Part shown: positions 1-62,972 of the stretch, piece by piece
Numbering within the stretch: position 1 is the first letter of the stretch
Layout of the letters: each line of letters starts with the position of its first letter
Origin: Macrocystis pyrifera
Lineage: Eukaryota > Sar > Phaeophyceae > Laminariales > Laminariaceae
DNA: 64,000 bases
Assembly (NCBI GenBank): GCA_031763025.1
Contig: JASSKH010000016.1
Coordinates: 5,208,001 to 5,272,000 of the forward strand
Direction: 5' to 3'
The notes under the pieces: generated by a model
What the model saw: only the letters and a program-made list of their open reading frames with translations
What the model was told of the DNA's origin: nothing
Databases searched by the model: none
Translations under genes and position numbers: made by a program

Positions 1-408
1 AAATAGTACGGTACGTACCTGGTACCAAAACAGCAGCACAAGCACCAGGTACACCAGTTTTTATACTTCATGTGATGTGCGTACTAAAAAGTAGTAAAAG
101 TAGTAAAAGTAGTAAAAGTATAAACGAAAACAGCAGTTACTGCGCAGAGGAGGCTGTGACGCGGACAAATGACAGGGTTTCGGCAAAAAATGGATGAACT
201 CGCTCCGCCTGGGTGACCTTCACTGACTCCCACCCCCCCCCGCCCCTCCATCCCACGCCATGTCCTCGACCATGTCAAGCGTGGTTCTACGGCCAGCCTA
301 GCCTTCCTTCCAAGAGGGACCCCTTCGCAAACATTCAACCGCTTGGTTCCTTCGGGGTGTGCGAGAAAGAAAGAGAAAGAAAGAAACAAGAAAGAGCAAC
401 AAAATTCA
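1..408. other. No gene seen; microsatellite and CT/AG-rich tract
   Basis: Positions 86-122 hold a short tandem repeat of the type AAAGTAGT, 232-243 a C run, and 365-395 an AAAGAAAGAAAG tract. A minus-strand reading frame crosses the area and could be a continuation of the candidate exon at 625-706, because a pyrimidine-rich stretch ending in AG (about 355) would join it in phase. The translation has no recognisable domain, so it is not called as a gene. Confidence 0.4.
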
Positions 409-706: not shown

Positions 707-964
707 GTTCGTGTCCGACTTACACCACCACACGTAGTAGCCGCTTCCTGCTTGCTGTGTGGGCTGTGCGGTGCAACACACCAACATCGTCGTAATCAGT
801 CTCCCATCTTTAATGAATATGATTCCATGATTTCGTATTTTGGTACCATGTACCTGTATTTTACGTTTAAAAAACTACCTGGTACCTGGTACGTACCTGG
901 TATTTTGGTATCATGTCAAATGTCAACCAATGAACGGAATGACAATTATTACGCGGCATAGTAA

Positions 965-1068
965 TATTGGACCAAATATTGATGGCAAAAATAGGTAAAT
1001 ACATCCCTGGTAGGTTTTTGTCTCTACCGTAGATCCTACCAGGTATTTACTATGGTCCCCCCTAATAG
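965..1068. mobile_element. MITE family 1, copy a (left tip lost)
   Basis: This copy contains the family core (GACCAAATATTG, then AAAATAGGTAAATA, then a right arm ending TATTTACTATGGTCCCCC). The left terminal arm is missing. It carries a TACCAGGTA insertion at 1037-1045 where other copies have a plain TA. Confidence 0.75.
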
Positions 1069-1537: not shown

Positions 1538-1643
1538 TTAAGGGGGACCATAGTAAATAGGAGCTGCGGTACAGACAAAGATCTGTATATTTACCTATTT
1601 TTACTAACAATATTTGGTCCTATTTACTATGGCCCCGTAATAA
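1538..1643. mobile_element. MITE family 1, copy b
   Basis: The element has a left arm GGGGGACCATAGTAAATAGG and a right arm ending CCTATTTACTATGGCCCC, with TTTTTACTAACAATATTTGG inside. It is about 105 bp, non-coding and foldback in form. Confidence 0.8.
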
Positions 1644-1863
1644 TAGGGCTCCAGCACCTTTTTTTGTGTGTGACCACGGACTCCTTGATTTAACAGATGA
1701 GAGAAAACAACAACATCAGTGCGATCGCTCCTACAACATGTTACACCAGCAATGCACAATGCACGTATGATAAAATACCGGTACACTCGATCGATGTGAA
1801 CAGCCCGCAACCAGCTCATATTCGCTGACTGAGGTTGCTTCTTCCGCCGCGCGTCTTGGCCGT

Positions 1864-2874
1864 TTGACCGATGACCGCGCTATGCCCGTGTCATCTAACC
1901 TTGCCCACGACCGAACTTCGGCGATCGACTCCGCCGCCGCTACCGCCGCGAAAGAGCACACTGCCGACGTTCAACGGGCGTACAAACACCTGGGACTGAA
2001 GGATATTTCGCGCATTTCTGTCCTACCTTTTCCCTCCTTGATCGACCCTTGCGATGCCGCGCAACAACTCACTCGTTCGGTAAAGGCCCCCGCCTCTGAT
2101 ATTCTCATGATGTGCAACGATGGCAGCCATGAAGGCCTTAGTTCTACTATTTGGATCCCCGGTTGGGAGTACCCTCCTAAGAAATCCTTCGCGCGCGCCA
2201 TCGCGCCTGATAAGCCCACGACCGCCCCTCTCACTACCTTGATGGATGATTTTTTTGGACAGGTGTCGCGCGCCCTCGCAGCTGGATCGACGGGACCGGA
2301 GGCGTTCACGCTCCTCCTGAGGTTGCAGAGCAACCACTTCGACCGCACCAACACGGGGGCCAGCTACACCAAGTTGCATAATTTTGGCGTGTCTAACGGG
2401 ACCCCTTTTGGCGATTTTAGCCGCGCATTTCGAGGAGTGGTGTCGGCAGCGACGGGGACTGAGCGTGTTTTGGCACCGGGGGTGGAGGTAGTTTTGGAGG
2501 TAGTTCGGATGGCAGTGAACGAGCAGTACCCCAGCTTGACGCCCACGCTGCACCCGGGAGTTTTGGCTACGGTATCGAGGCCGTTCGGCACTTTGGACGC
2601 CGTGTGGTTGGCTTTCGAGACTCTCGCGAATAATAAGACACCTGCCGTCAACGGCGAAAAATATTTTTCTTTGCCTGCCTCTTCGACGCGTGTGCGGTCA
2701 TCCGCCCGTCGGGGCCCCGGCCCGCCAATAATGGTCGGTCGCGGCCAGGGCCGAACGCTTCCCCAGTCGTCTTCTTGGCAGACGGGATCGCGCAATAATC
2801 CGCTTGTGATGAATGTCAACAAATCCATCCCTGACTGCCTCGACCCGTGGCTTGACACCTCTTCCAACTGCTGA
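1864..2874 (+). pseudogene. gag-like protein (matrix/capsid part), Ty3/gypsy
   Basis: This is a 336-residue open frame at the 5' side of the element. It would supply the structural protein that packages element RNA in cytoplasmic particles. No catalytic motif is expected. The call rests on position and on the zinc knuckle that follows in the same frame after a single TGA at 2872-2874. The C-terminal third is basic and Gly/Arg/Ser-rich, as in nucleic-acid-binding gag ends. I would not recognise it as gag by sequence alone. The first ATG at 1864 is taken; another in-frame Met lies seven codons later. Confidence 0.7.
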
Positions 2875-3516
2875 CCCCTTGAAGAACACCACCATGCTGA
2901 AGTTCACGCCGTTTGCATGTCCATCCAGACCGAGGACCCCCCCCTCTGGAGCGGCCTACTTTCATCGTCCGCTCGCGCAGCCGCCCTCAGCGAAAACCGA
3001 GGGCACTGTTTAAACTGCCACGAAGACACACACTCTATCCGACAGTGTAGACACCCCTTTCTAAATCTTAGTGGTATCTTAAACCCCGACCTCGGAACGC
3101 TCGGCGACGACGGCGAGGCGTTCCGTCGTTGGCAAGAACGCATGATCAGACACCGCCGCCAGAACAATTCACGACCGAACAAACACAACCAGAAGAAAAA
3201 CAGGCGTCGTCCCGGCCACTCGCGTGGGCAACATCACGGCCAGGGTCAGCAAAACAAGCAAGGTGACGGCTACAACACACACGCGGCACGAGGACACCAG
3301 CAGTCGAACTCCGATCATCACGGTGGTGGTTCGACCGCCCCTACCTCTTCCGTCCCGGCTCCCGTCTCGGGGGTTCGCTACGGTGCCTCGCATAACTCGG
3401 CGGAAACCCGAATGGGCGCCAGCCAGGCACCTTCCGCGCCGGCAACTGACAGGTCGACGGCGGTTCGGCTCCTCCTGCCCGCCCGCTGCCGGCATTGCCG
3501 GGAGAAAAAACATTGA
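2875..3516 (+). pseudogene. Nucleocapsid-like region with CCHC zinc knuckle
   Basis: In the same frame as gag, after the TGA at 2872-2874, the translation contains CLNCHEDTHSIRQC. This is an exact C-X2-C-X4-H-X4-C knuckle, the RNA-binding signature of retroelement nucleocapsids. A long basic tail rich in Arg, His, Asn and Gln follows (about residues 85-140 after the stop), then a Pro/Ala/Ser-rich stretch to a TGA at 3514-3516. The single stop between capsid and knuckle is most simply a mutation. Programmed readthrough is possible but nothing specific supports it. Confidence 0.8.
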
Positions 3517-14750: not shown

Positions 14751-14954
14751 TCTATGCCTTAATAATACGCATGCTACGTACGTAATATGTACCTGGTATG
14801 TATACTTACTCGTGCGGTAAGCGTGACCTAGGCCCTAGACGTGTTTAATGTTATTCTCTATGATACGGCACAATGGACGGATGTATATATCGAATTGTAT
14901 GTATAGGGATCTACTTGAAGTACGTACAGTACCGGACATCCAGTACGTGGGAAA

Positions 14955-19209: not shown

Positions 19210-19318
19210 TATTACGGGGGTCCGTAGTTAATAGGACCTATGGTATACATAAAAACCTATATATTTGCCTATTTTTACTAGCAATATTTGGTCCTGTTTA
19301 CTATGGTCCCCCGTAATA
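19210..19318. mobile_element. MITE family 1, copy d
   Basis: It has a left arm GGGGGTCCGTAGTTAATAGG and a right arm TCCTGTTTACTATGGTCCCC, bounded by TATTAC and GTAATA. The two arms belong to the two different tip variants of the family. Confidence 0.88.
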
Positions 19319-19419: not shown

Positions 19420-19665
19420 CGGACAGACCACTGGTCCCCGCGTCATGATGTAGACCTTTCAGGGCAGATAATTTTCCTGATTTTGCACGATCTAGCTCAT
19501 GTTCCCGAGTTGGTGCCCGCAAACTCCGCATAACCCAGCACACCTTTTATTCGTTGGACCAATACTACACAGGCCCTGTCCAACATCTCATGAAGGCAGG
19601 TGAGGAACTACCATGGTACAGTAGTTACATGATCTACAGCAGATGATCTACAGTAGATCGTGATT
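19420..19665. repeat. Non-coding repeat related to 33770-34015
   Basis: Shared features with 33770-34015 are GTAGACCTTTCAGGGCAGAT, a degenerate GATC-rich middle, CATCTCATGAAGGCAG and an end with GATCTACAGTAGATC. No open frame of interest is present. Confidence 0.5.
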
Positions 19666-22036: not shown

Positions 22037-24190
22037 AGGATGCACAACAATTCTTGCGTGCCCATCCCCAGGATAGAAGCGCGTGGAAGACACTGAGATC
22101 TGCGTGTGCGAACCTGCGGGAGGTGATTGCCGCAGGACTGCATGTGTACTTCGAAGAGTACCTCACCGAAACCGAAAGACTCCTAGCGAACAATGACCAG
22201 AGGGGATTTTATAAGCACCTGAAAAGTATGGTGGGATTGGAAGAGACTAAAGCGAGGAGCGAGCAGTTCACAAGGGACGAGGATGGCACGCTGTTGCGGG
22301 ACAAGGTGCGAATTCGTGAACGATGGGCGGGGTGCTACCACAAACTCAACACGAAATCGCCGAATCTCGATCCCACGATCATCGACCTCTTGCCACCTCG
22401 ACCGCTTAAACCGTCGCTCGGACACGAACCATCTATGGACGAGATGACGGAAGCACTCAAGGGCATGTCAAATAGGAAAGCTGTTTGGCCAGATGGCGTC
22501 CCGGCCGAACTCCTAAAAATCGACCACCCCGCATTCGCCCAGTGCTTTCACAACACCCATGTCAATGTTGGGGTAACAGAAGACGTGCCCCAGGAATGGA
22601 AAGATGCGATCATCAAGGTCCTTGACAAAAAGAAGGACCGAACTGATTGCAACGACTACAGATGGGTCTCACTTGTTGCCCACGCAGGCAAAGTGTTGTT
22701 GAAAATCGTCGCGTCCAGCCTTAGCAACTACTGCGAGACCCAGGGATTACTCCCGGAGGAGCAGTGCTCGCACGATCAACGATAGATATGTTGTTCGTCG
22801 TGCGCCGGTTGCACGAGCTCGGACGACTGATGAAAATCCCCCTGTACGTGTGCTTCATCGATCTGCAAAAAGCGAACGACTCTGTCGACCGAGAGCTGCT
22901 GTGGAAGGCACTCACACGTTTTGGCGTACCAACCAAGCTGCTTACAATTATCCGCAATTTGCACGACGGCATGCGGGCTCGCGTGCGTACGGGTGACGGC
23001 GAGCACTCGGAATGGTTTGAAGTAACGCAGGGGCTGCGACAAGGCTGCGTGCTATCACCGTTACTGTTCAACGTGTTCTTCGCCGCTGCGTTACACGTCG
23101 TACTGGTACGCTTCACCAAAGACAGAGCCATCCTAAGGGATTAGGTTCAACTTAATGACGATGGAGTAGCCGGACCAGAGGAGCAGGAGCCATTGGCATG
23201 CGTGCGACGGGCTGTACGGGGCATGTCGTACGCCGATGACGCAGGAATTGTCTCGAAGTCGGCTGAAGGGCTCGCGAAAATGATGGCAGTCATCGTGACT
23301 GTCTCCGAAGCAGCAGGCCTCACGGTGTCGGAAAAGAAGACAGAGACAATGCTTGCACAAACACCAGATTAGACAACCCTCGCACCACCGCTCGTCATCG
23401 AAGCAGCAGGCCAGAGGTGTAAGCAGACGGACCAGTTATTATACCTAGGCGACATTATGCACGAAAACGCTGATCTCTCGCTCGAAATCGACCGACCGAC
23501 CCGTCTCATGCGAGCATGCCTCAAACGGTTCGGCCCGGAGTTGTATGATAGGACGACCGCCCCCCTTAGCCTGAAAGTCCGAATGCTGGAGGCCGAGGTG
23601 ATTGAGACCCTGCTGTACGGGTGTGTGACGTGAACCCTCAAAGCTGAACACTTTGCCAAGCTTCGAACGGCTCACCACCAAGTCCTCTTGCGAGTCATTG
23701 GCTTCCAGAGCCGACTTCGTACCAAACACGCCACCCTCTCGTACGCGAAGGTCCATAAGATAACAAGTTGCGAGAGCACCGAAACGACCATCCGTAAACG
23801 GCGGCTCATTTTTGCGGGGGCCATGGCACGGCAAAGCAAGGAGCGAATACCCAGTCGGGAAATGTTCGGGACGATGGCTGGCGGGGAGAACCCGAGAGCT
23901 GGCGGGCAGTTCAAGGCTTGGCATAGATGCATAGTCGAAGACCTCTGGGAGTTCCGAGCCACCGAAGGGTCAACGGAACCTGCCCCCTTGGTGTTTGAAG
24001 TTGAGACCGCACTGTGGTCGACTGCAGCAAAAAGGCGGGGAAGTGGTACCGGGGGATCCTCGAATCAGCCGAACGGTTCATGGTGAACAGGCACGAGGAT
24101 GAGGCTGAGCAGAGTAGGCAGCGCCGCGCATCCACTAGTTGTGGGTGGTGCCCAAGGAAATAGGCGGGGGGGGGGGGCAACAGCTGGGAG
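22037..24190 (+). pseudogene. LINE reverse transcriptase (copy 1), broken
   Basis: The protein would prime reverse transcription on nicked target DNA. The first part (frame 1, to about 22785) holds [20 protein letters not shown], a classical LINE RT motif region. After a frameshift near 22770, frame 3 holds [20 protein letters not shown] and the active site MSYADDAGIV (about 23225-23250), then the long C-terminal region with [16 protein letters not shown] and [20 protein letters not shown]. Stops in that frame lie at 23142-23144, 23370-23372 and 23631-23633 (TGA where the paralogue has Trp). A C-terminal CGWC-type motif may precede the stop near 24165. Confidence 0.88.
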
Positions 24191-26866: not shown

Positions 26867-27044
26867 GAGAATAGAGTCATCCCCCACAGGTCGCGGTACT
26901 ATTTCGTCCGCTGTATACGAGACATGGTTGATCGGGTCTGATTGTCTTAGACTAAGCTCTACAGGGGTTTTGTTGAGAAGTGATTTCTGGCTTTTCCAGC
27001 GATCTCCGAAGCCCAAAAAATCTGAACCATCTGTTAATACCTGG

Positions 27045-27205
27045 TAAAATTTATAAAATGAAAAACAAGAGCTGCTGCTGCTGTGAGGTCGAGGATTTCG
27101 TCGAAACCAATCTTCGCAAGCTGTGCGTGATATTAGTGATAATTCGATCGCGCGTACTGCGGGTTTCATTTGGCCGCATCCAGGATATACAGCAGTCCGT
27201 ATGAG
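27045..27205 (+). pseudogene. Coding remnant, homologous to 50470-50650
   Basis: The translation reads CEVEDFVETNLRKLCVIL and, after an insertion, IRSRVLRV. The locus at 50470-50650 encodes the clearly related VSIEDLVATHVRNLCVILRS in an open frame. This copy carries a (CTG)3 insertion and a TAGTGATA insertion relative to the other. It is a decayed copy of an unrecognised gene or element ORF. Confidence 0.45.
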
Positions 27206-28270
27206 GAGGACAAACAAAAAGCTGACGCTGCAGAATTCAAGGAGTAGGTGTGTTTATCTGTCAGAAATAAATTAAAAACATATGTGTATACCATGGTATA
27301 CATACGGTATATATCAGATATACCCGGAGGTTGCACGTAGCTTGCCACCAGTGAGAAATCCCCCCCCCCCCCTTCCTTTCCCGGGTGCGTATTTCATACC
27401 TATTCTTCCCGTTTTATAGTATACCTGGTATATATTAGGATACCATCATCATCACCACTACCGAGCAGCAAGAAATAATAACGATATGATAAATCATTTT
27501 TTTGGAGAAGGATATTATACGTAGAGGGCGGGAAATCGTCCCCATCAGTTTTGTTCTACGTATGTTCTTAGAGGGGGCAAAATTACAGCGAATGATCTCG
27601 GAACTACTGCTGCTGCTGGCTGCGCACAGCAGTTCCTAGCGGTTTCTCGTGCCTCCAGGAACTGAGAGTCGCTTGAATTTTATGTGCTCACTACAGCAGC
27701 AGCAGTACTACTGGCCATCTGTCGAGTCTATCCGTCACCAACGGCAGAGCACCACACCTGCGGCGGGCTGTACCCACAGGCTATGGCGCTCATGCAAGAC
27801 GTGGCCTTTCCTCGGATGGAAGCGATAGCAGCTGCAGCAGCAGAGAGCAGCAGCACCATCAGCAGCACCGAGGGCGATTCGACGTCGCCGGCGAAAATGC
27901 ATCCGTAATTGGATGCCGAAACCACGTCCGTTCGCGGCGGCGCGGCAGCCGCTGGCTTTGAGTCCTTTGACGTAAACAAGACCAACTGACACTGCTGTGT
28001 ATAGAATCAGTTTCCAAAAATCAGAAGCCATAGTAGATGGTCCTTATTCCTCATGCACATATGGCTGGATCCTCGAAACTAGAAAAATAATGGCCATAAA
28101 TCACGGCTCAATTTTTTCTCATAATAGTTGTGGCCTTGGGCTTAGGGTTACAAGCACAGATAGTACTATAATATTAATACGACGTAGTTATATTCGTCTT
28201 GTAAACAGCAGTATTAATAGTAGTGACCCTCAACTGTTTTTTCAAATGCTTACCAGGGTACCATCTACCC
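27206..28270. other. No confident gene; weak minus-strand candidate at 28031
   Basis: On the minus strand an ATG at 28031 begins MASDFWKLILYTAVSVGLVY, a membrane-anchor-like start, and possible exons follow (27735-27985). Splice sites are not convincing, so no gene is called. A C run lies at 27361-27372. Confidence 0.3.
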
Positions 28271-30610: not shown

Positions 30611-31056
30611 GAGCCGAACGTTAAGCAACCGTCTCCACTTTGTCCCAAAACAAAGGATATTTAGTACCATGTATAATAGCGATATACTAAGACCTACCTG
30701 GTATGCCAATGGAAATGCGAAGTCCGAAAAAAAAACTTCGGAAAATGTCGCTTTCAAATAACAGCCGAGAATATCCTCGTACCGCCGCTGTGGGAAAAAG
30801 GGAAAAAAAACAACGTTTTTTTGTTTTCTTCTTTTTTCTAACGGCTGCAGGCGGCGCAGTTTGTTTTTTCGCGTTGCAAATTTTCAACACGCTGATAAAA
30901 ATCAGCTCGTGCGACGATAGACGCTCGATCTTGACATAGGCTCAGCCTACGGTCAACCCGCTTGGTGTCGGGCAAGGCCAACCAGGATAGATGACGGCCT
31001 CGAAGATAGAAGGTGGATCCATGCTCCAGGGGGCGAGAGCGTCCTACGGTATCCTC

Positions 31057-32984
31057 CACACCTCGGATAACGTAACACTTAACGTCTTATGTTAATGTTA
31101 GGCGTCAGCGAGAAAAAAACGTAATACCAGGTATTACGTTACTACGTTAACGACTTTCTGGATTTTGTGATAACATAGTGTTAGTGTGTTACTATATTGG
31201 CGGGCGATCGCGAAACATTATGTTAGAGTGTTACCTAGATCTCGTACTGACCGCAGTATATGTGCTACGGTGTTGGGGTATGCAGCCCATAGCGAGTAAC
31301 ACTATGTTAGCGTGTTAGCGGAATTCCTTGTGGCTACCGTAACACACGTTGAAGGGATAACGTACGAGTACATGGTCAATTAAACGTTAACATTATGATA
31401 CCGTGCTGGCGGCATCAGCCCGTAGGGAGTAACGTTATGTTAGTGTGTCCGCGGGATTCTTCGTGCTACCGTAACACCCTTTCGACGGATAACGTACACG
31501 GCCAAATAAACGCGTACATAACACTATGTTAGTGTGTTAGTGAAACTCCTATTACTAGGGGCTATCGTAACACGCGTTAGAGGGATGACGTACGTATATT
31601 ATTATGGTCAATACAACGTTAGCATTATGTTACCGTATCAGCCGCGGCAGCAGTCCGTTTCGAGCGACGTTATGTGAGGGTATTACGGAAGTCTTGCTAC
31701 CATAACAACATAACATACGTCAAACGGATAACGTATATGATCGATGAAACACTATTAAAAGCATTATGTCAATGTTATTAACTTGTATGCAATGTATTTA
31801 GTGACACAAGTTAATACAAAACGTAAACCCCCAATCTAAAGTCAACAATATGTTACTGCCGTGTTAACTCGTACGTGCGAGTGTGCAGATTACGTTATAG
31901 ATGGATAACGTGATGTGTTATACATGGATAACGTACTGGCGGGGTTAAAAAATGAGGCGTTTTTTGCGGGGATCCCTCCTAAATATCCCCTGTTTTGGGG
32001 TTTTAAAATATGGAGGCGTTTGTTTTACCGGGGATGCCATGCTATCCTCCCCCGGGGATATTTTGTAGGTATCCCCTACTGGGATGTCAGCGAAATTGGA
32101 TAACACGGCTACGCTATGTTACTCCCACACGCCCGCTTTACCACTAACACAGGTAACACATGTTAGATCTCGGGAAGATCCAAAGGGTAACGTAGTAACA
32201 TTACGTTAGAACGACTTCGGCCCCAACGGTAACTCAGTAACATAAAGTTAGACCCGGATTGGTTTTTATGGTAACACGGTAACGGAATGTCACCATCAGA
32301 TCTTTACTGACGGTAACACCGTAACATACAGTTACAGAGACTTCCGCGTTTAGGCTAACATCCTAACATAATGTTACGTATGGGCCGGCTAAGACTGTAA
32401 CGTATCTAACGTACGTTAAGTGTTACGTTATCCGACCCTAAGGCAATCAGATGGGGGGTCCAGATAACGTAGTGTTAGTAGTGCTGGTCATTGCGTTATG
32501 TGACATTAGTGGGTTATCTGTAACACAATGTTATGTGTTAGTAGTGCTGGCGAACATGGCAACGTTATGTTAGGGTGTTATGTATAACACTCCTCCAAAG
32601 GGTAGCACAATGTTATTGTGTTACGTCTAACGCTGCGTCGACTGTAACATTATGTTATCGTGTTAGTAAATATGCGGATATCGATCTGGGCATGTTAGAG
32701 TGATAACGTACGTGTTTGGTCACAGCCTAACACTGTGTTACGGTGTTAGTTCAAGGACTGATCACGGCATAACATAATGTTACTGTCCCAGAGCTGGACA
32801 AGACCGAGCAGCAACATAACGTTAAGGCTCGTGCTCGTTCGTGAGTTTCCAGTTGACACTGTGTTACCGCGGTACCGTGATCGCTCCTCTAGTGCTAACA
32901 CTATGTTAGTACGTTACCACGTTCCTGTGTTAGACCCCATAACGTAGATAAGTGTTATCCGAGTGTTACGTTATCCGAGGTGTG
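31057..32984. mobile_element. 1.93-kb palindrome-saturated transposon with 8-bp TSD
   Basis: Both ends carry the same 23-bp inverted terminal repeat, beginning CACACCTCGGATAACGTAAC. The flanks are the exact 8-bp direct repeat GTATCCTC at 31049-31056 and 32985-32992. The body contains several dozen imperfect copies of TAACATNATGTTA and half-sites, in both orientations, from end to end. A G/C-box piece (31965-32085) has its own foldback. There is no transposase frame, so it is a non-autonomous cut-and-paste DNA transposon. The 8-bp duplication fits hAT, P or related superfamilies, which I cannot separate from the ends alone. Confidence 0.92.
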
Positions 32985-35195: not shown

Positions 35196-35640
35196 CGCAA
35201 CACACTGAAGAATACCTGGTACAATGCACGAACAGCACAGCAAGCAAGTGCTGTTGTCCAATCGTAAAGATGGCAAACCAACCATGTTGCTGCACCGTTA
35301 CCTTTCGCTCTCCCACAACCACAGCTCACCCAGCTCCCACAACTCCCACACACCCCTCACCTACCACAGCTGTCACAACTTCCTCACCCCCTACAGCTCC
35401 GACAGATCCCACGGCTCCCACAGCTGCCGCAACCCTCAAAATCTCCAACAACACACCCCACAGGCTTCACAGCTCCCACAGATCCCAAGCCCTCCCACAC
35501 TTCCCACATCTCCCACCAAATATGTCGCTGACGGCACTCTCAATCCTTGACGGGTCAAGGAAAGCCGTCAAGGGCCTCCCCAGACTATAAGGAGTATACC
35601 AAGTCTAAAGACGTCCTGACGGGCCAAAACTACAGTAGAC
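34336..35640. repeat. No gene recognised; CAG microsatellite
   Basis: (CAG)n of about 17 units lies at 35142-35194, preceded by interrupted CAGCAT/CAG units at 34991-35060. Frames through it give Gln or Ala runs only. A C/A-rich stretch at 35310-35530 is of low complexity. Confidence 0.6.
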
Positions 35641-36057: not shown

Positions 36058-36671
36058 CTGGAGGGGGAGGGCGGTGGGTGGAAGGAGGCGGGAGGGAAGA
36101 AGGGGGCGCGCGGGGGTGGGGGTTATGAAAGGGTGAGGTGGGGAAATATAAACGTACCAGGTACGGCAGTGAGTCTGCATGCACGCGACGCAACCCGCGT
36201 CTGTGCATAGACTACTGCACATGGATTCTGGATACTGGACACCTTGTATCTCGCGCTTGTATCTCGAAGATACTTGTACAAAACGAGAGCGAGTAGCCCG
36301 TCCAGGGTCCAGGTGTACTTCAATCCTGTATACTGCTTGCTGTCTGTATGTCGGCATTGTGAGCATCCATACGTACACGTACACTGCTGCTACGTACAGT
36401 ACTATGATACACGTACGTACTACGCACACAGTCAGTAGCAGCAGGCTCGCCAAACGACAAGAGTAGGAGGAGGAGGACAAGGGGACGATTACACAAGCAG
36501 TTATTGATAGTAGCAGCAGGCTCGCCAACTTCTGACACATAAGTAAGAGGGGGACAAGGGGACCTATATTTCTGCTCGAAGCCGCCTGACAGCAGCAGCA
36601 GCAGCAGCAGCGCCGACCTGAGATATAACTCTTGTACTGCTGTACGTATAAGCTTGCAAGCGTTGGCGTAC
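36058..36671 (-). other. Probable intron of the candidate gene at 35675-36696
   Basis: It is bounded by GT (36671-36670) and AG (36059-36058) on the minus strand. It contains a CAG microsatellite (36591-36612) and a C-rich 3' end on the minus strand. Long open frames through it are out of phase with both exons. Confidence 0.4.
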
Positions 36672-37407: not shown

Positions 37408-38754
37408 TAGAGGTCGGTATCACTTCTGAAAACGCTCTGATATGATATATGATATATTTGTAAAAAAAAAGTGATATATGATATGATATGATATATCATA
37501 TCATATCATATATCATATCATATGATATGATATGACAGAAAACCCTCCCAAAAGCGCCCGAGAATCTCCCGAGATCCACTTTTTTCTTCGAAGTTCCGAG
37601 TTCTTCGAAATACCCTGACATGGCTCTAGCTAATCTAGCTCGCACACAAGGAGCCATCATAGCTTGTCTGCTGTAGTCCACAGCAGCAGTCGTTCTCACG
37701 GCATGGTCTTCTTTGTGGTTCGCGTTGAAGTTGGAGTTGTCATTGTTTAATCTTTATAACGAAGATTTTCGTATTTCGGCTTTTGCTTTTGTGTTAATAT
37801 TAGTAAAAAAAGAAAGGCGGAGTGCTGCTGTTGATTTCAGGGTGAAGATTCTAGTATGTGTCGTCAGTGTTATATTGCAGTCTTCATGATACTCTATTTT
37901 GAGGACAAGCGGTTGAAATTGTCTGGTGATTGCACACAGCTAGCTGCTGCTGTGCATGCCTTGGGCCCGAGGTATTCCTGATTGTTGCGTGCGTAATACC
38001 TTATAGCAATGTGCGCCTTGTTTATTCCGTGGAAGCGAAATATATGCTGTTGCACCACCATGTACGTACGTACGTGGTACGTATGTACCCCTAGTATAGC
38101 TGGTATTTTATACTGGTATAAAACTAAGAAAGCACGTTATAATAATATAGCCTACCAGGTACTATACTGCTGTATATAGTATAGGTGTTGTAGGCGAGTA
38201 GAGCCTGGTAGAGGAGTTAAATATATACTACTAAATACCAATTAAAAAAATGTTAAGGTTTCCAACAACTATAATAACTCTCGGCATCATGCCACATGAA
38301 TACATCATTATTGCTACTGATGCTACTTTATGCTGCTCTTCTCGCTGGCTGTGTGTGTGTGCATCATCACCCACCTTTCGTCCCAGCTTGTGCTCGAAAA
38401 CGTTATACGAGTAATATATACGGTTCGCCCTACTATTACTGACTGACGCTGGACACATGTTTGACTATTGAAATATGTGCTTACCAGCAGTGCAAGAAGA
38501 GCATTACACCCCACCCCAACCCAAGAACGTCCTTGGCTACTGCTGTGTGGCCTCAAAGAAAGTTGAAATCGTGACTTTTATTCCATATCATATCACATAT
38601 CATATCATATGATATGATATATCGATATCATATCATATGATATGATACGATATGATATATCATATCACGGTTTTTTTTTTGTGATATTGATACGCTTATA
38701 TCATATCACATATCATATAATATATCACATTTTGTGATATGATACCGACCTCTA
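37408..38754. mobile_element. hAT-like non-autonomous transposon with 8-bp TSD
   Basis: The ends are TAGAGGTCGGTATCA and its inverse, a 15-bp perfect inverted repeat. The exact 8-bp direct repeat CTCGGCAC flanks it at 37400-37407 and 38755-38762. TAGAG-type ends and 8-bp duplications are typical of hAT elements. Just inside both ends lie dense GATATGATATATCATATC arrays (37437-37532 and 38580-38735). The interior is AT-rich, without a transposase. Confidence 0.93.
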
Positions 38755-42279: not shown

Positions 42280-42480
42280 ATGTGTGTGTTTTTCACATCA
42301 AACCGTTCTTTCTACCGGTCGACATTCAACACAACTATTAATAGTGTCCGTGCCGATTCTTCGAGCCTCGAGAGTCACAAGTTCTGTGGTCACAAAACTA
42401 CCCCACCGAGATACTACTTTCTTATGCAGTATGCAGAGTAGACAGCGCCACGCCATGTATGCATGTACGACTCCTTGCTT
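42280..42480 (-). repeat. LINE 3' end, 5'-truncated (minus)
   Basis: Reverse complement of the last 200 bases of the LINE. It carries TATTAATA at 42337-42344, where other copies have a short CCA. Confidence 0.82.
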
Positions 42481-42909
42481 TGTAGTTCGGACATTAACTG
42501 GTACCATATATATACCAGGTATAATGTGATCCACCCCAATCATGCAGTGGCTAAATAAACTGTGAAATATCAATACGACAATGTAATCGTCACATTTTAT
42601 CGTCATTTTTTTCCCACTCTGAAGTCCCTACAGGGATAATGTGAAGAACACACAAGCATATTATTATACGTACGTACTGCTATAGAGCTGTACCTACTGC
42701 TGTAGACCTATGACGCACAGCTCCCGGACCCGGGCCTGATCCCATTTGACACCCTGTCCCCATTTACTATTTATAGTGATTGGTGGTAATGAGGCGCGAC
42801 CTCAGCAGTACCTGCAACAGTCAAATCTACGATGCATCATGCTGGGCGAACACGGATTGTACACCAACAGACATCTGCGTACGCGGTCGCATGTATCCGT
42901 GACGTTAGG

Positions 42910-43189: not shown

Positions 43190-45465
43190 ATTCTTCACTT
43201 CAACCGTTCTTTTTCTTTCTTCCCGTCGACATCCAGCACAACCATTGTCCGTGACGATTCTTCAATCTTAGAGAGATACAAGTTCTGTTGCCACGAAACC
43301 ACCCGGTACGCCACAGCAGAGATACTACGTTGTTATGCAGTAAACAGAGTAGACAATGCAATGTCATCTCTTCATACTGGATACGACGGGCACGACATAC
43401 GCATACTATGAAAAGAGAGAAACAAAAGGAACAAGAAAGTAAGTCCAAATGAAGAAGAAAAAAATAAGGGAAAAAAGTACCGTGCCCCCCCGTAGGGGAT
43501 GTGGCAGACGATACAGAACGAGCGAAAGAAACGATACCACTATCAATACATCTCAACAGAGAAAGACTAAGAACCAAGGGAAACAACAGCCAAAGAACCG
43601 AAGCACACAAAAAAAAACACGAAAACCAAAACCAAAAGCACTCTCCAGTCAGCCGCAGCAGTTTGTGGTACGAGTAGCTATTCATTGGACAGATTCTACC
43701 TACTATTAATAAGCGGTCTGGTACCTTGCTACTCTTTCTGCCGTCTCCGTCCTGCTTTCGTCAACCATGCCCCACCCCCGAAGAGGATGCGTAGGACGTC
43801 GAAACAAGCAAAGCAGGCTCGTCATCCACCCACACCACAAGACTCCTGTCAGGAAGAAAGATGAAAAGTATCAAGACAATCACGGAGGATCAAAGAGCAA
43901 GAAGAAAAGGGAAACAAAGGAAGACCACGTTCGAACTAGCTGCTGGAGTCGGCGGCACGAGTAGCATGGAAATGTTCCACTTACTACAGTAGTCGCCCTA
44001 GTGCCTTGCTACCCTGTCTGCCGTCCCCTTCCTACTTTCGTCCACCGCGGTTTTCCTTCTACTCCTGCTGCACCCCCTGCCCCCATTCCCCTGGACACCA
44101 CCCACAGCGGATGCGCGGCGCTGCCTACTCAGCTGTGCCTCATCTTCGTGCCTGTTCACCATGAACCGTTCGGCTGCTTGAAGGGCCCTCCGGTACCACT
44201 TCCCCGCCTTTTTTCTGCAGTGTACCGCGGCGCGGTCTCAGCTCCAAACACCAAGGGGGCAAGTTCCGTTGATCCTTGGGTGGCCCGGAACTCCCTATAA
44301 AGGTATTCTACTATGCATATATGCCAAGTGTCCGCCAAGTCTCGGATTCTCCCCACCAGCCATCGTTCCGAATATTACTTGACTGGGTAATCCCTCCTTG
44401 CTTTGCCGTGCCACGGCCCCCGCAAAAATGAGCCGCCGTATACGGATGGTCGTTTCGATGCTCTCGCAACGTGTCATGCTTGAGGGCCTTCGCGTACGAG
44501 AGGATGGCGTGGTATGTACGAAGTCGGTGCTGGAAGCCAATGACTCGCAAGAGGACTTGGTAGTGAGCCGTTCGAAGCTTGGCAAAGTGTTCCGCTCTGA
44601 GGGTCCACGTCACACACCCGTACAGCAGGTGGGTTCTCAGTCACCTCGGCCTTCAGCATTCGGAGTTCCTGACTAAACGGAGCGGTCGTCCTATCATACA
44701 TCTCCGGGCCGAACCGTTTGAAGCATGCTCGCCATAGACGGATCGGTCGGTCGATTTAGAACGAGAGGTCGGCGTTTTCGTGGATAATGCCGCCTAGGTA
44801 TAAGAACTGGGCCGTCTTTTTGTACCTCTGGCCTTGTGCTTCGATGACGAGCGGTGGGGCGAGGGTTGTCTAGGCTGGTGTTGGTATTAATAGAAGCACT
44901 GTCTCTTGTCTTTTTTTCCGATACCGTTATGCCTAGTGCTTCGAAGACTGTCACGACTTTCATCATTTTATCCTTCATCCGACTTCGTTTAATGTGAAGA
45001 ATACACGCACACACACAATTCCCGCGTCATTCGGCGGACAACATACCCCATACAGCCCTCCGCACGCATGCCAACGGCTCCTTCTCCTCTGTTCCGATTA
45101 CTCCAGCATCATTGGGTTGAACCAAATCCCTTGCTTACGATGGCTTCGTTTTTGGTGAAGCGTGCCAGTACAACGTGTAACGCAGCAGGGAAGAACACGT
45201 TGGACAGCAACGGTGATAGCACGCAGCCTTGCCGCAGCCCCTTGGTTAGATCAAACCTTTCCGAGTGCTCGCCGTCATCCGTACTCACGCGAGCCCCCAT
45301 GCCTTCTTGCAAATTGCGGATATTTGTAAGCATCTTGGTTGGTGAGCCAGAGCGTGTGAGTACCTCCCACAGCAGCTCTCGGTCGACATGGTCGTACGCT
45401 TTTCCCAGATCGATGAAGCACACGTGCAGGAAGATTTTCCTCTGCCGTCCGAGCTCTTGCAACCC
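43190..45465 (-). mobile_element. LINE copy 2, 5'-truncated (minus)
   Basis: Its 3' UTR spans 43190-44160 (same order of blocks as in copy 1, inverted, including CCCCCCGTAGGGGATGTGGC near 43485) and the RT region 44160-45465. The 5' limit near 45465 is where homology to copy 1 stops. Confidence 0.87.
44160..45465 (-). pseudogene. LINE reverse transcriptase (copy 2), broken
   Basis: On the minus strand, 45109-45462 encodes [40 protein letters not shown] and [20 protein letters not shown]. Further on are [20 protein letters not shown] and ARQSKEG. The YADD active-site stretch is damaged: at 44985-45018 a short insertion derived from the LINE's own 3' terminus lies in it. Several frameshifts are present. 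Confidence 0.82.
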
Positions 45466-47422: not shown

Positions 47423-48457
47423 ATGGTCTACGGGGCGTTCGTAGAGCTGAGATTGTCGCCATAATCTCGCTCATTCGTGGGCTCTTCGTTTTCAGCTTTT
47501 TGTTTTCACCTTGTTGGTCCACGAACGAAAAATGAAAACGAGCACAGCCCGTCTCTCCTCGGCATCACTCTAAAGTATTTGCCTAATCCGAGGGAGTTGT
47601 ATCTTCCCATCTCATCTTCGCCATTGTTTTTCGCTTCAGAGCGCTCCGTTTGGACCAAAGATGTCAGGAGACAGCGTCTTCACCCCTCGACAGGCAGCAA
47701 ATTCGCCTTGACATGCCGTGACTGACACCAAACCACTAGGCTTTAGTGTATAACACTCCCTTGACAGCGCACGTTTTTGCTTGCTTGACATGTTTGCTGA
47801 CATATTTGGGTTTGGACGGGCTCTTGCGCCCTTGCCCTTCTACTAAGGACATGTCATACCAGTACGAAAAGTTCCCTCTATTTCCGGACAGAGTGGCAGT
47901 ATTTTATAAATTTTGAAATACGTCAGCTGTGAGTTCGACTGATTAAATAGTTGATACTCAACTTTGCAAGCTGCGTATAATACGCCTCGTCTATATTCCA
48001 TTTTTACCGAATTTTACAAGTATTTTATATTATACCAGGTAGTATTCTTAGTATCGATGGTATTTGTTTATAATAGTATTCATAGTGGTGTCTGCACAAA
48101 TATCATACATACCTGATACAGCTGCGGCAGCTCCCTGTGTGCTCAAAACCAACGAAAAATCGAAGTCTGACCGCCTACCTACAAGAAGTCGTTAGTGTTG
48201 CACATTCATAGCATTTCTTCCCGCTTGCACGTCCATTTTGGCTCATGCTCGGGGTATGTGTCTGAGCTTTGGCTTCCCATTTTATTTATTCACTTGAGAT
48301 TCTTCTCCTTTCTTTTTTCGGTTTGGTTTCTTCGTTGCTTCTCTTTCTTTATGGCGTTTTTTAGTTGCTGGTGTATGTATGTACGTTGTGTCGGCCGCAC
48401 CTACCTATTAATAGTGCGAATGCGTAGGCTATTATTGCATTACGGTGTGTTATCTCT
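47423..48457. other. No gene seen; dispersed repeat at 47907-48033
   Basis: 47907-48033 (TTTTATAAATTTTGAAATAC ... ACCGAATTTTACAAGTATT) recurs at 53418-53541 with small indels. The rest shows no coding signal. Confidence 0.5.
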
Positions 48458-52852: not shown

Positions 52853-53930
52853 GCCGCGAGTGAGCAGTTCGATGGTTGATGCTGTAAAAACACGAATACT
52901 TGTACAAGTAGTACTCTTGTCACGGGGAACGAAGAGGATGAGCCCTGGGTGGATGAAACCGGTTAGGCACCCAAGTGCGGCACTTAAGATAGCAACACTG
53001 CCTCGGAGGAATAACCCAAGTCGATTTCCACAACATCGGAGGGTGAAAACATGAAAAAGCGATGCATGTACGCCGTGGATAGAATTTTCTATGTAAGATC
53101 TCGACGAGATCTTCCCAACGCCGCCATTTTCGTTTTGGTTGGTCGCCCCTCAAGTTGCGGAGAAATTCGTCTCTGAAATTTGCCCCAGGGGGTGTTTTGT
53201 TTGGTCACCCGTGTGTTGCGTATTCGGTAACATGCAATCGAGTGTTGTCGATCATCGTGCTGCGATATCCGAGCGAGCAGCAGCTATGGATGGAACTAGA
53301 TAGCTGCCTACTGAAAGTTATAGCTGAAGCATTTCAGGTCAACATAGCACGGGCGAGAGCCATGCACGGAACGGGTGTCTATACCGTCGTAAGCGATCGT
53401 CAGCGGTCTCTCGTATATTTTATAAATTTTGAAATACGTCAGCTGTGAGTTCGACTGATTAAATAAATAGTTGATACTCAACTTTGCAAGCTGCGTAATA
53501 AGCCTCGTCTATATTTCATTTTTACCGAATTTTACAAGTATTGTGATAGACCCACACATGAATTTTACAGATAGATAGAGCGAAGCAGGCCAAAAATAGT
53601 ACGTACGGTACTGGTGGTCGTAGCAAACGCACTTTTTGGCAGTCGGTCCTGACAGGCCGCCGTTGTTGAGGGATTTGCATCATTGGCGTTCGCTCAGTCT
53701 TGATCGCGCGGATCTTTAGCGCAAGTTTTTTTTTGTCTCAAGAACTGGCCGAGCGTTCACGGTCACCACTTCGGAATCAATCGTCGTCCGCAGTTCAGAA
53801 TTATTATCGCTCGATTCGAAAGCGGCGCAGCCGCGTTTCTGGCCAGTTGTGGCCCGTTTTGGCCGGGGGTTGGGGTTAGTTAGGGTTATCGTCCTTTTAT
53901 ATACCAGGTAGGACTGTTATTATTTACGGG
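52853..53930. other. No gene seen; dispersed repeat at 53418-53541
   Basis: 53418-53541 pairs with 47907-48033 and has AAATAAATAG where the other has AAATAG. A frame at 53155-53448 is open but has no domain or splice support. Confidence 0.45.
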
Positions 53931-56014: not shown

Positions 56015-56121
56015 TATTACGGGGGTCCATAGTTAACGGGACCAAATTTTGTTAGTAAAAATAGTTAAATATAGGTTTTTATGCATACCATAGGTCCTAT
56101 TAACTATGGACCCCCGTAATA
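56015..56121. mobile_element. MITE family 1, copy i
   Basis: TATTACGGGGGTCCATAGTT at the left and AACTATGGACCCCCGTAATA at the right. Both tips are of the GTCC/AGTTAA variant and almost perfectly inverted. Confidence 0.92.
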
Positions 56122-56580
56122 GTAGTTATCCATGAACGTTCGCGATTGCTACTGCTGCTGTGTCCCATCCCTCCGCGCAACATGCCTCTCTTGACCGGCG
56201 TCTCGCCCCAGACGGGTTCTTGTACATGCATGCGCACTCCCATCTGCCAGTTAGAGCTGCAAGCAGTAGCAGTAGCACTTCAATCTATCGTGTTGGCACT
56301 CTTGTATAATACATCATACGTACCTTGTACTCGTACCTGCTACCAGTACGATTTTCGTCCCGCGTTTGCGAAATTAATTACTTACACCCCCCCCCCCCCC
56401 CCCCCCGCCGCTCTGAAATCTAAACAAATGTTTACCAACGCAACCCCATTACAGCCAACCAACCCTATTTGATTATTGCTGTCCTTACACATACATCCAC
56501 GATCAGACCCAAGGGGCAACTATTTTTACCCTAGTTATGTGCGTAAAGTTAAATGGTTACCTGGTATAACAGCAGTAGGT
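56122..56580. other. No gene seen; C run at 56388-56406
   Basis: Short frames only. A TACCTGGTA motif stands near 56560. Confidence 0.4.
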
Positions 56581-56708: not shown

Positions 56709-56818
56709 TATTACGGGGGACCATAGTAAGTGGGACCAAATATTGTTGGTAAAAATAGGAAAAATATATAGTTTTTTGTGTGCACCGTAGGTTCTATTTA
56801 CTATGGTCCCCCGTAATA
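56709..56818. mobile_element. MITE family 1, copy j
   Basis: TATTACGGGGGACCATAGTA at the left and TACTATGGTCCCCCGTAATA at the right: a near-perfect inverted pair of the GACC/AGTAAA variant. Confidence 0.93.
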
Positions 56819-56998
56819 GAAGATCGCTCTAAATGCCTGTGTACCGCATACTGCTGATCTACCTGGTACCTCGTACGAGTGCGAACATACGTGGTACAGC
56901 ATTAACTCTAAAAATCTACACACACACGCGGTAGAGCGCGCTATGTATCGAATAATTAAACCAGGTTTGCAAAGATGAGTTCTTATTATTTTAATCAT

Positions 56999-58977: not shown

Positions 58978-59492
58978 TGTTATGAGGCTTAGATTGGGTA
59001 GGCGATTGGTTAACATTTTACCTTTAGCCCAACGGACTAAGACCTTAACAAATGGCGTCGTCGGCAGGACATGGGTCGTTGGTCGTGAGTTCGAATCTCA
59101 CGTCCACCATGAAATCGCTTTGTAAAGAAAAGTGAATTTCCTCATGCCAAGAATCTGAAAAAATACTTCTGGGTTCCCAGAAATTGGAATCGCGTGTTGG
59201 TGTCACGCGTCTATAACAAATGGCGACGACGGCAGCACATGGGTCGTTGGTCGTGAGTTCGAATCTCACGTCCACCATGAAATCCCTTTTTAAAGAAAAA
59301 AAAGTGAATTTCCTCATGTCAAGAACCTGAAAAAATACTTCGGGATCCCCAGAAATTGGAACCGCGTGTTGGTGTCACGCGTCGACCCTTATATCCGGTC
59401 CGTTCCAGGGGGGGGGGAGTGTTTTGAGGCTTAGATTGGGTAGGCGATTGGTTAACCTTTTACCTTTAGCACAACGGACTAAGACCTTAACA
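58978..59492 (+). mobile_element. TRIM-like 515-bp element with 73-bp LTRs and 4-bp TSD
   Basis: Direct terminal repeats of 73 bp (58978-59050 and 59420-59492; three differences by eye) begin TGTTNTGAGGCTTAG and end CCTTAACA. The element is flanked by CTGT at 58974-58977 and 59493-59496. Behind the left repeat stands AATGGCGTCGTCGGCAGGAC, a TGG-starting primer-site-like stretch. There is no coding capacity. TG...CA ends, 4-bp duplication and the shared internal start link it to the larger gypsy LTR family here. It sits inside LINE copy 3, so it is younger than that LINE. Confidence 0.85.
59051..59419 (+). repeat. TRIM interior: duplicated tRNA-3'-half-like unit
   Basis: A unit of about 165 bp stands twice (from 59051 and from about 59217). 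Each holds GTGAGTTCGAATCTCAC followed by GTCCACCA, i.e. a 5-bp T-stem, a 7-base TTCGAAT loop, seven acceptor-length bases and a CCA-like end. No matching 5' half pairs with it, so it is a tRNA-like remnant and not a gene. An A-box-like TAGCCCAACGG lies in the left terminal repeat 64 bases before the B-box-like GTTCGAATC. Confidence 0.65.
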
Positions 59493-60641
59493 CTGTCCGC
59501 CAGCTCTCGGGTTCTCCCCGCCAGCCATCGTCCCGAACATTTCCCGACTGGGTATTCGCTCCTTGCTTTGTCGTGCCACGGCCCCCGCAAAATGAGCCGC
59601 CGTATACGGATGGTCGTTTCGATGCTCTCGCAACGTGTCATGCTTGAGGGCCTTCGCGTACGAGAGGATGGCGTGGTATGTACGAAGTCGGTGCTGGAAG
59701 CCAATGACTCGCAAGAGTAGTTGGTGGTGAGCCGTTCGAAGCTTGGCGAAGTGTTCCGCTCTGAGGGTCCACGTCACACACCCATATAGCAGCGTCTCAA
59801 TCACCTCGGCCTTCAGCATTCGGACGTTCAGGCTATACGGGGCGGTCGTCCTATCATGCAACTCCAGGCCGAAGCGTTTGAGGCATGCTCGCATGAGACG
59901 GATCCGTCGGTCGATTTCGAGCGAGAGGTCCGCTTTTTCGTGGATAATCCCGCCTAGGTATAAGAACTGGGCCGTCTGTTTATGTACCTGGCCTGCTGCT
60001 TCGATGACGAGCGGTGGGGCGAGGGTTGTCTGGGTTGGTGTTCGCAGAAGCATTGTCTCTGTCTTCTTTTCCGACACCGTGAGGCCTGCTGCTTCGAAGA
60101 CAGTCACGACTTTCATCATTTTTGCGAGTCCTTCAGACGGCTTCGAGACATTTCCTGCGTCATCGGCGCACAACATGCCCCCTACAGCCCTTCGCGCGAA
60201 TGCCAACAGCTCCTTATCTTCTGCTCCGACTACTCCGGCATCAATGAATTGAACGAAATCCCTTACGATGACTTCGTCTTTGGTGAAGCGTACCATTACG
60301 ATGCGTAACGCAGCAGCGAAGAACACGTCGGACAGTAACGGTGATAGCACGCAGCCTTGCCGCAGTCCCTGCGTTACATTAAACCATTCCGAGTGCTCGC
60401 CGTAATCCGTAAGCACGCGAGCCCGCATGCCTTCGTGCAAATTGCGGATAATTGTAAGCATCTTGGTTGGTACGCCAGAGCATGTGAGTACCTCCCACAG
60501 CAGCTCTCGGTCGACAGAGTCGTACCTGGTGCGCTTTTTACCGATCGATGAAGCACACGTACAGGGGGATTTTCCTCTGTTGTCCGAGCTCTTGCAACCG
60601 AAAGCATGTCGTGCGCCGCACCGGAAAATAAACGAGCTCAT
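59487..60641 (-). pseudogene. LINE reverse transcriptase (copy 3), longest open copy
   Basis: 384 residues are open. Motifs in order are [60 protein letters not shown] (the active site, with Cys in place of the usual Tyr of YADD), [35 protein letters not shown] and [20 protein letters not shown]. The upstream frame shows an 8-base insertion reading CACCAGGT around 60523-60531 relative to copy 2. The continuation after the TRIM (58614-58895) includes ETALWYTAAKKAGKWYRRTL. Confidence 0.9.
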
Positions 60642-60664
60642 TGAAGCTATATATCGCCTATACG

Positions 60665-60872
60665 CAAGTCCGCCTCAAGAGCGGGTTCTTCTTATTAATT
60701 GTACGATGCAGCTCACCCTTCATGTGACTCCCCGAACACCTCACGTTTCGCTTCGCGCTTGGTGCGAGCAATGTCTGCCTGGTCAGTGAAAACCCGACGT
60801 GCTCCGTCCCGGCGTTGTAGGGATACGAGGGTCTATGGTCATACGACTACGGCCATGCGTAATGTAGAGTAC

Positions 60873-61749: not shown

Positions 61750-62345
61750 CTAGACCATCTAGATGATGTACAGTAGACCCTTTATCCCGTTGGGTCATCT
61801 GTAACATCTAGATCCTATTTTTGCATGTAGATCATCTAGAGATGATCTTGTTAGATCATCTAGATGATCTACAGTAGTTATAATCGCCTTCAGATCAATA
61901 GGATCCAATATTTGCCGCTAGATCATCTAGATAATCTAGACCCTATGTTTGCCGTTAGATGATCTAAATGATCTAGATCCGATGTTTGCCGTCAGATTAT
62001 GGAGATCCTATATTCGCTGTTAAATCATCTATTAGGTGATCTAGATCCTATTTTTGCGGAAATATCATGTAAATCATACCTTTGCCACTGGATCTAGCTC
62101 ATCTACTGCAGATCCTATATTTGCCGTTAGATCATCTAGATGATTTAGATACCTGTGTTTGCCGTCAGACCACGTAGGATCCTACGACTTGCCGCCAGAT
62201 AATGTACTGTAGATCCTCTGTTTGCCGTTGAACCATCCAGATGATCTACAGCAGATCCTATATTTGCCGTAACATCACGTAGATCCTACAGTTGCCGCCA
62301 GATCATCTAGATCATCTAGATCATCTAGATCCTATAGTTTCCGTT
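61750..62345. repeat. Degenerate GATC-palindrome array, ~45-bp units
   Basis: About a dozen units of the type TTTGCCGTTAGATCATCTAG / ATGATCTAGATCCTAT are arranged in one direction. Each holds the palindrome GATCATCTAGATGATC or a part of it. There is no coding sequence. Five units have TACAGTA, TACTGTA, TACAGCA or TACTGCA where the consensus has TA (61769, 61870, 62104, 62205, 62247). Confidence 0.8.
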
Positions 62346-62682: not shown

Positions 62683-62972
62683 CGGAGGACCATACCTGGT
62701 AGTAAATAGGACCTACTGTATTGACTTACGGGGGACCGTAGTAAATGGGACCTACTACTGTATTGACTAAAACCTATATACTGTATTCCCCTAATTTTAC
62801 TAGTAATATTTACCCCTAATTTTACTGTTACAGGGGTCCATAGTTAACAGGACCAAATATTGTTCGTAAAAATAGGTAAATATATAGGTTTTTATGTATA
62901 CCATAGGTCCTATTAACTATGGACCCCCGTAATAGTAATATTTGGTCCTATTTACTGTGATCCCCCGTAATA
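62683..62972. mobile_element. Nested cluster of MITE family 1 copies
   Basis: The left piece (62683-62725) is a truncated arm with TACCTGGTA at 62693-62701. A second arm begins TTACGGGGGACCGTAGTAAA (62727). A complete copy of the GTCC/AGTTAA variant (about 62829-62935) is inserted in the second one, whose right arm resumes as ATATTTGGTCCTATTTACTG and ends CCCCCGTAATA at 62972. Confidence 0.85.

Follow-up and report, generated by a model that had tools for sequence, protein, structure and literature searches.

The footprint left by Sleeping Beauty has the form TAC(A/T)GTA. The cut that frees Sleeping Beauty lies 3 nt within the transposon, and the NHEJ footprints are identical to the 3′ overhangs, as stated in passages of PMC7827188; excerpts of two further papers give footprint lengths of 2-4 bp for Tc1/mariner elements (PMC7913693) and of 0-4 bp for the pogo-like Passer (PMC9976928). 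For rice DNA transposons, mariner included, passages of PMC4423477 report that the duplicated target site and nothing else remained after only 8 of 94 excisions, with deletions or filler DNA in all other cases. In Ectocarpus, Mariner-Tc1 elements comprise 17 families and 11,912 copies, mostly non-autonomous, in an account whose main text was found not to contain the words excision, footprint or MITE (PMC12477816). So diverse and mostly non-autonomous a population makes an element of this type plausible in kelp.

In this study, we relate a nine-letter word of the Macrocystis pyrifera genome, TACCWGGTA, to these systems. Like the footprints of Tc1/mariner elements (Sleeping Beauty, ZB), it would consist of a duplicated TA target with tip bases between the two TAs; unlike them, it has a core, CCWGG, of 5 bp, longer than the 2-4 bp given in the excerpted text of PMC7913693, its exact copies in this one genome number 121,279, and a parent was not found in the searches made. 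As such a core needs overhangs of 4-5 bases, the word would work like a Tc1/mariner footprint, length aside. As in rice, the excision traces would be legible by genome comparison, whereas in kelp, unlike rice, one short form, the exact 9-mer, accounts for about 70% of the surplus in words of the TACC-N0-6-GGTA type. We consider TACCWGGTA to be the excision footprint of a TA-specific cut-and-paste DNA transposon, with a probability of roughly 0.7. This is the best supported reading because the word is gained as 7 bp mostly at TA, shows a palindromic target preference, has its own TA used again, and has a parallel within the same genome in TATTAATA and MITE family 1. The initial annotation had left the choice between excision scars and ultrashort insertions of a TA-targeting element; the former is now favored, and the element itself did not come to light in the sequence searched.

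Within the window, by which we mean the whole 64-kb stretch of DNA analysed, the exact 9-mer TACCTGGTA occurs 19 times on both strands together, whereas 100 dinucleotide shuffles averaged 0.31 and never exceeded 2. The earlier estimate had been at least 15 copies by eye against under one by chance; every position then listed is present, with an offset of 0-3 bases, and the copies at 883, 894 and 35213 were absent from that list of examples. The enrichment extends to the genome as a whole, as had been proposed for checking: across 537,376,219 bases in 223 contigs, TACCTGGTA was counted 121,279 times on either strand (60,614 and 60,665 per strand), against 2,421 (1,182 and 1,239 per strand) for a control that was the reversed word and not shuffled sequence. 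A 264-kb sample, made up of the window and 20 further 10-kb stretches, of which 17 lie on the same contig as the window, held 44 exact copies against 1.76 expected under a third-order Markov model, and 10 more were found in 51,665 bases from twelve loci that were selected by transposase matches and are partly alike. The pattern is real and strong. Literature searches gave no report of a TACCWGGTA scar among the matches listed.

For the comparison between copies, each site was reduced to a TA joining its two flanks, and sister copies of this empty site were then sought. Querying 57 sites (TACCNGGTA and TACCATGGTA) yielded an alignable sister for only 6. Three of these (1037, 62693 and 30695) show a clean gain of 7 bp relative to sisters, as does the LINE copy at 60523. 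At 1037, all 26 sister alignments of the scar-bearing query have a 7-base gap; when the empty-site query was used, 28 of 35 sisters had TA, 5 had TG and 2 were gapped. At 62693, sisters read TA in 3 of 3 alignments and, in another run, in 4 of 4; a looser search gave seven TA and one CA among the 8 of 25 alignments listed. These two MITE copies had been put forward from the start as gaining 7 bp at TA, and the sister alignments agree. Site 30695, whose single sister L019:1448 reads TA, is a further clean case that was not part of the original copy comparison. The fourth site, in a LINE, has exactly 7 extra bases relative to two sisters in the window, as claimed, but the plus-strand word there is TACCTGGTG, one base off the 9-mer that had been reported; TA is indeed found in the sister at 45391, while the second sister, near 22866-22918, has TT. 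At the four clean sites, the word replaces TA in most sisters, with TG, CA or TT in others. A single TA at the empty sister site, as found for most of these sisters, characterizes TA-specific transposon footprints. Among controls with sisters, a majority gap of 7 was seen for 2 of 645 random 9-mers and for 1 of 220 other TA-N5-TA words. Three further sites were less informative: the exact scar at L012:4861 is ambiguous, with a gap of 11 bases; L015:5605 was dropped from the clean cases to the ambiguous ones, its sister carrying TACGTGGTA; and the TACCATGGTA site at window position 19609 has one weak sister, of 72% identity, without the insert.

Table 1. Coordinates of the word copies and related features in the window; "scar" is used in the sense of the preferred reading
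Feature	Position	Strand	Basis
TACCTGGTA scar in MITE family 1 copy	62693..62701	+	sister copies read TA
Scar in MITE family 1 copy	1037..1045	-	7-base gap vs sisters
Scar in dispersed repeat	30695..30703	+	sister L019:1448 reads TA
TACCTGGTG, scar one base off, inside LINE reverse transcriptase ORF (ORF on -)	60523..60531	+	7-base gap vs two sisters
Scar pair with one common TA, 7-bp step	876..891	+	exact word count
Third scar, beginning 3 bp past end of 876..891 pair	894..902	+	exact word count
TACCTGGTA	16..24	+	word match; no sister copy reported
TACCTGGTA	14790..14798	+	word match; no sister copy reported
TACCTGGTA	27038..27046	+	word match; sister weak, uninformative
TACCTGGTA	27422..27430	+	word match; no sister copy reported
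TACCTGGTA	31125..31133	-	word match; sister weak, uninformative
TACCTGGTA	35213..35221	+	word match; sister weak, uninformative
TACCTGGTA	36155..36163	-	word match; no sister copy reported
TACCTGGTA	38153..38161	-	word match; no sister copy reported
TACCTGGTA	42513..42521	-	word match; no sister copy reported
TACCTGGTA	48033..48041	-	word match; no sister copy reported
TACCTGGTA	53902..53910	-	word match; no sister copy reported
TACCTGGTA	56558..56566	+	word match; sister weak, uninformative
TACCTGGTA	56860..56868	+	word match; no sister copy reported
TATTAATA, second scar type, predicted MITE family 1 footprint	42336..42343	.	6-base gap vs sisters
TATTAATA, second scar type	44885..44892	.	6-base gap vs sisters
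MITE family 1 copy, TA-TTACGGGGG...CCCCCGTAA-TA, proposed TATTAATA parent	19210..19318	+	end search
MITE family 1 copy	56015..56121	+	end search
MITE family 1 copy	56709..56818	+	end search

Two features of the window stand apart from the copies of the word. Palindromic words of the GATCATCTAGATGATC type are clustered at 61760-62320. The LINE-type reverse transcriptase on the minus strand at 59487-60674 has among its relatives proteins annotated as products of bacterial MAGs, including Luteolibacter sp. (80% across 51% of the query) and Parasphingorhabdus sp. (71% across 54%); algal contamination of those MAGs may be the reason.

Four sites with a 7-bp gain, the scattered copies, the preferred target and the nesting are direct observations; from them we infer an element, its tips, the length of its overhangs and their repair. 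A Tc1/mariner/pogo-like transposon would insert at TA and thereby duplicate it, excision would cut a few bases within the element ends, and the flanks, still carrying the tips, would be rejoined. With tips of the form CCAGG...CCTGG or CCTGG...CCAGG and 3′ overhangs of 4-5 nt, the overhangs could anneal by C-G pairs on either side of one A:A or T:T mismatch in the centre and so produce TA-CC(A/T)GG-TA. The resulting 9-mer, with its TAs spaced 7 bp, would resemble the preferred target, so that scars hit again would form chains. The 9-mer does not qualify as a MITE in its own right, since a MITE has terminal inverted repeats around an interior and the gain is 7 bp with none.

A second word provides a parallel within the same genome. 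TATTAATA occurs 94,130 times genome-wide against 7,522 for its control, and 46 times in the 264-kb sample against 4.63 expected; the window holds it at 42336, 43704, 44885 and 45821. A gain of 6 bp relative to the majority of sisters was found at 4 of 6 testable sites, or at 3 of 7 with slightly different search settings, compared with 7 of 239 other TA-N4-TA words. At 42336, a 6-base gap appeared in 10 of 16 sister alignments, with CA, not TA, in 16 of 20; at 44885 it appeared in 2 of 2, the sisters reading CA and TG. These readings tell against the parallel; we tentatively ascribe them to mutation before or after insertion. MITE family 1 is bounded by TA-TTACGGGGG...CCCCCGTAA-TA, measures about 109 bp including both TAs, and is represented by 35 ends in 264 kb. 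The flanks of TATTAATA favor TAC before and GTA after, and the base next to the TA on its outer side is C at 23 of 35 MITE family 1 ends and on 42 of 92 TATTAATA sides. Three-base TTA overhangs of the MITE family 1 tips could anneal to yield TATTAATA, and to judge from these sequences TATTAATA is likely the footprint of MITE family 1; a scar of like construction would then be paired with its likely parent. Imperfect as it is, this parallel makes an excision scar the best reading of TACCWGGTA too.

The surroundings of the scars show a palindromic preference of the kind seen with transposases. When the two flanks of 53 TACCNGGTA sites are pooled, T stands at -7 in 42 of 106 (27.7 expected) and A at -6 in 51 of 106 (27.2 expected), with expectations taken from all TA sites, and A or T is favored at -4 and -3. 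Of 86 TACCWGGTA sides, 28 have a TA exactly seven bases off, two of these 28 belonging to one nested pair, as opposed to 7.2% for all TA sites; such a TA is present on 3 of 18 sides where the centre is C/G, on 1 of 8 sides of TACCATGGTA and on none of the 24 sides of TACCGGTA, or on 32 of 136 sides for all forms together. Such a symmetric target-site preference is a feature of TA-specific transposon footprints. A scar amounts to two TAs seven bases apart, and is therefore itself a favored target. Consistent with this, scar doubles with one common TA number 5,620 genome-wide against 0 in the control, about ten times the approximately 525 calculated for random choice among 28.0 million TA sites. 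Of these doubles, 2,018 are inverted (1,409 CCAGG-TA-CCTGG and 609 CCTGG-TA-CCAGG) and therefore cannot be explained by slippage. The other 3,602 are direct and make up 64% of all, above the 50% that independent centres would give, so that some of them likely stem from slippage. An asymmetry of 22:1 between the inverted doubles, seen in the first 50 places on small contigs, did not hold genome-wide, where it is only 1,409:609. A scan of a viral collection for the inverted double gave one place, with nothing notable there.

Taken together, TACC-N0-6-GGTA words number 223,935 genome-wide against 54,546 for the reversed control. About 30% of this excess lies outside the exact 9-mer, and other centres and lengths therefore matter as well. 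In the 264-kb sample, a C or G centre was found at 9 sites against 1.11 expected, and TACCGGTA at 12 against 2.52; the latter may have another origin, since it lacks the preference for TA at seven bases. Blunt-filled products are scarce: TACCWWGGTA reaches 4,646 against 1,915 in the control genome-wide, and TACCATGGTA occurs 4 times against 0.35 expected in 264 kb and is small genome-wide. The share of other word forms, the scarcity of filled products, the 5-bp core and the failure to find a parent in the searches made all weigh against the excision reading.

The initial annotation predicted a TA-targeting element whose tips begin with CC; such tips follow from the scar, but the element was not found in the 264-288 kb or the DDE_1 loci searched. 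No convincing CC-tipped element emerged from the 264-288 kb, a sample in which we estimate that a family of under about 5,000 copies would escape. Among 94 TACCWGG ends from the loci sampled, overlaps included, there was no recurrent long extension. TACCWGG without a following TA occurred 82 times in 264 kb against 52.5 expected, and among these 82 ends no 11-base extension was seen more than 3 times; the excess may consist of decayed scars. Searches for inverted repeats of the form TACC...GGTA returned 12 and 6 pairs. By eye, the pair in L016 is a LINE-like inverted duplication, that in L018 consists of interior words of MITE 1, pairs within longer inverted repeats of the window are not elements, and the pair 56558/56868 represents two scars matched to each other.

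Profile searches of the genome gave 0 matches for PF13358 at E 0.001, none above the cut-off for PF01359 (four sub-threshold pieces) and 39 for PF03184 (DDE_1), many of them on small contigs. Surroundings were taken for ten of the 39 (L030-L034 and L037-L041). Scanning L030, L034, L037 and L041 for CC tips gave none that convinced, and scanning L030, L033 and L034 for any TA-bounded repeat gave one weak pair, in L034. The DDE_1 gene in L031, L032, L033, L035 and L036 (contigs C162, C32 and C202) is about 96-98.5% identical in its main blocks; by their sequence, these amplified copies look like segmental duplications, and L031-L033 were rejected as parent, since they match along some 6 kb and the sequence examined shows no ends bounded by TA. 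A pogo-like DDE_1 element, decayed and about 1.7-1.9 kb long, was recognized at L037:622-2554, L038:1627-3294, L039 about 1605-3337 and in L040, the last without its right tip. It resembles the element sought in its terminal inverted repeats, its DDE_1 match and, in L037 and L038, the TA that flanks it at either end; it was rejected as parent in that its tips, CAGTACTGGGCCC, are of the CAG type and predict TACWGTA, not TACCWGGTA. TACWGTA itself occurs 89 times against 37.6 expected in the 264-kb sample, with C just outside on 94 of 206 sides (loci L009 onward); as a third, CAG-type footprint it is unproven, the majority gap being 5 bases at 1 of 12 sites with sisters. The parent of TACCWGGTA would have been excised by a DDE transposase; the three Pfam searches gave no fitting candidate.

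That no parent was met with in the searches made would also suit an ultrashort insertion, in which a 7-bp unit, TACCTGG, was added straight at TA by an enzyme or by templated repair and was never part of a larger element. It would further account for the gained 7 bp being one sequence and for the small number of blunt-filled products. Nevertheless, TATTAATA matches what an element present in this genome would leave behind, and a palindromic preference around TA is typical of transposases. We know of no process that adds such ultrashort units, and we regard this explanation as improbable.

That one nearly palindromic word should be so abundant might instead recall a selected or mutation-driven short motif spread by point mutation, comparable to HIP1 in cyanobacteria and to bacterial uptake sequences. 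Such motifs arise without change in length, whereas the four clean sites, within MITEs and a LINE reading frame, arose by a gain of 7 bp. One-mismatch relatives, central base excluded, number 87 against 44.0 expected beside the 44 exact copies in the 264-kb sample, and these resemble decay; from this ratio we would roughly put the decayed scars at one per intact scar, and hence suppose a long accumulation. A motif spread by point mutation therefore seems very unlikely. Just as implausible is that the 9-mer forms a fixed part of larger repeat families and was copied with them. Some copies are regularly spaced in contig C1, as this would predict, yet the sequence around the 44 exact copies of the sample varies, apart from the palindromic preference, sister copies in the clean cases lack the word, and only 3 of the 44 align to another copy in the 264 kb when the scar is kept in the query, with gaps of 7, 11 and 2. 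An assembly or sequencing artefact, for which no evidence was seen and which would leave the near-equal strand counts, the decayed forms, the target preference and the nested chains unexplained, has a negligible chance of being the cause.

Returning to the excision footprint, one may tentatively go a step further and think of a hit-and-run transposon, a possible but doubtful scenario. A low-copy or lost element with CC(W)GG tips, cut 4-5 nt inside, would have left well over 100,000 fixed scars that, as preferred targets themselves, grew into chains; its flanks would have rejoined as cohesive ends, mostly in one way, and few or no copies would remain.

If the excision reading is right, the history of excision in this genome, which as a rule is difficult to trace, would be readable site by site, including the number of jumps, their targets and their relative ages, for an element that may no longer exist, and the pair formed by TATTAATA and MITE family 1 would provide a built-in calibration. 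The scars would also provide ready markers with which kelp strains or species could be compared, and a gain of 7 bp can shift reading frames. Finally, the dominance of so long a scar form would point to an unusual cut or to unusually faithful end joining in brown algae.
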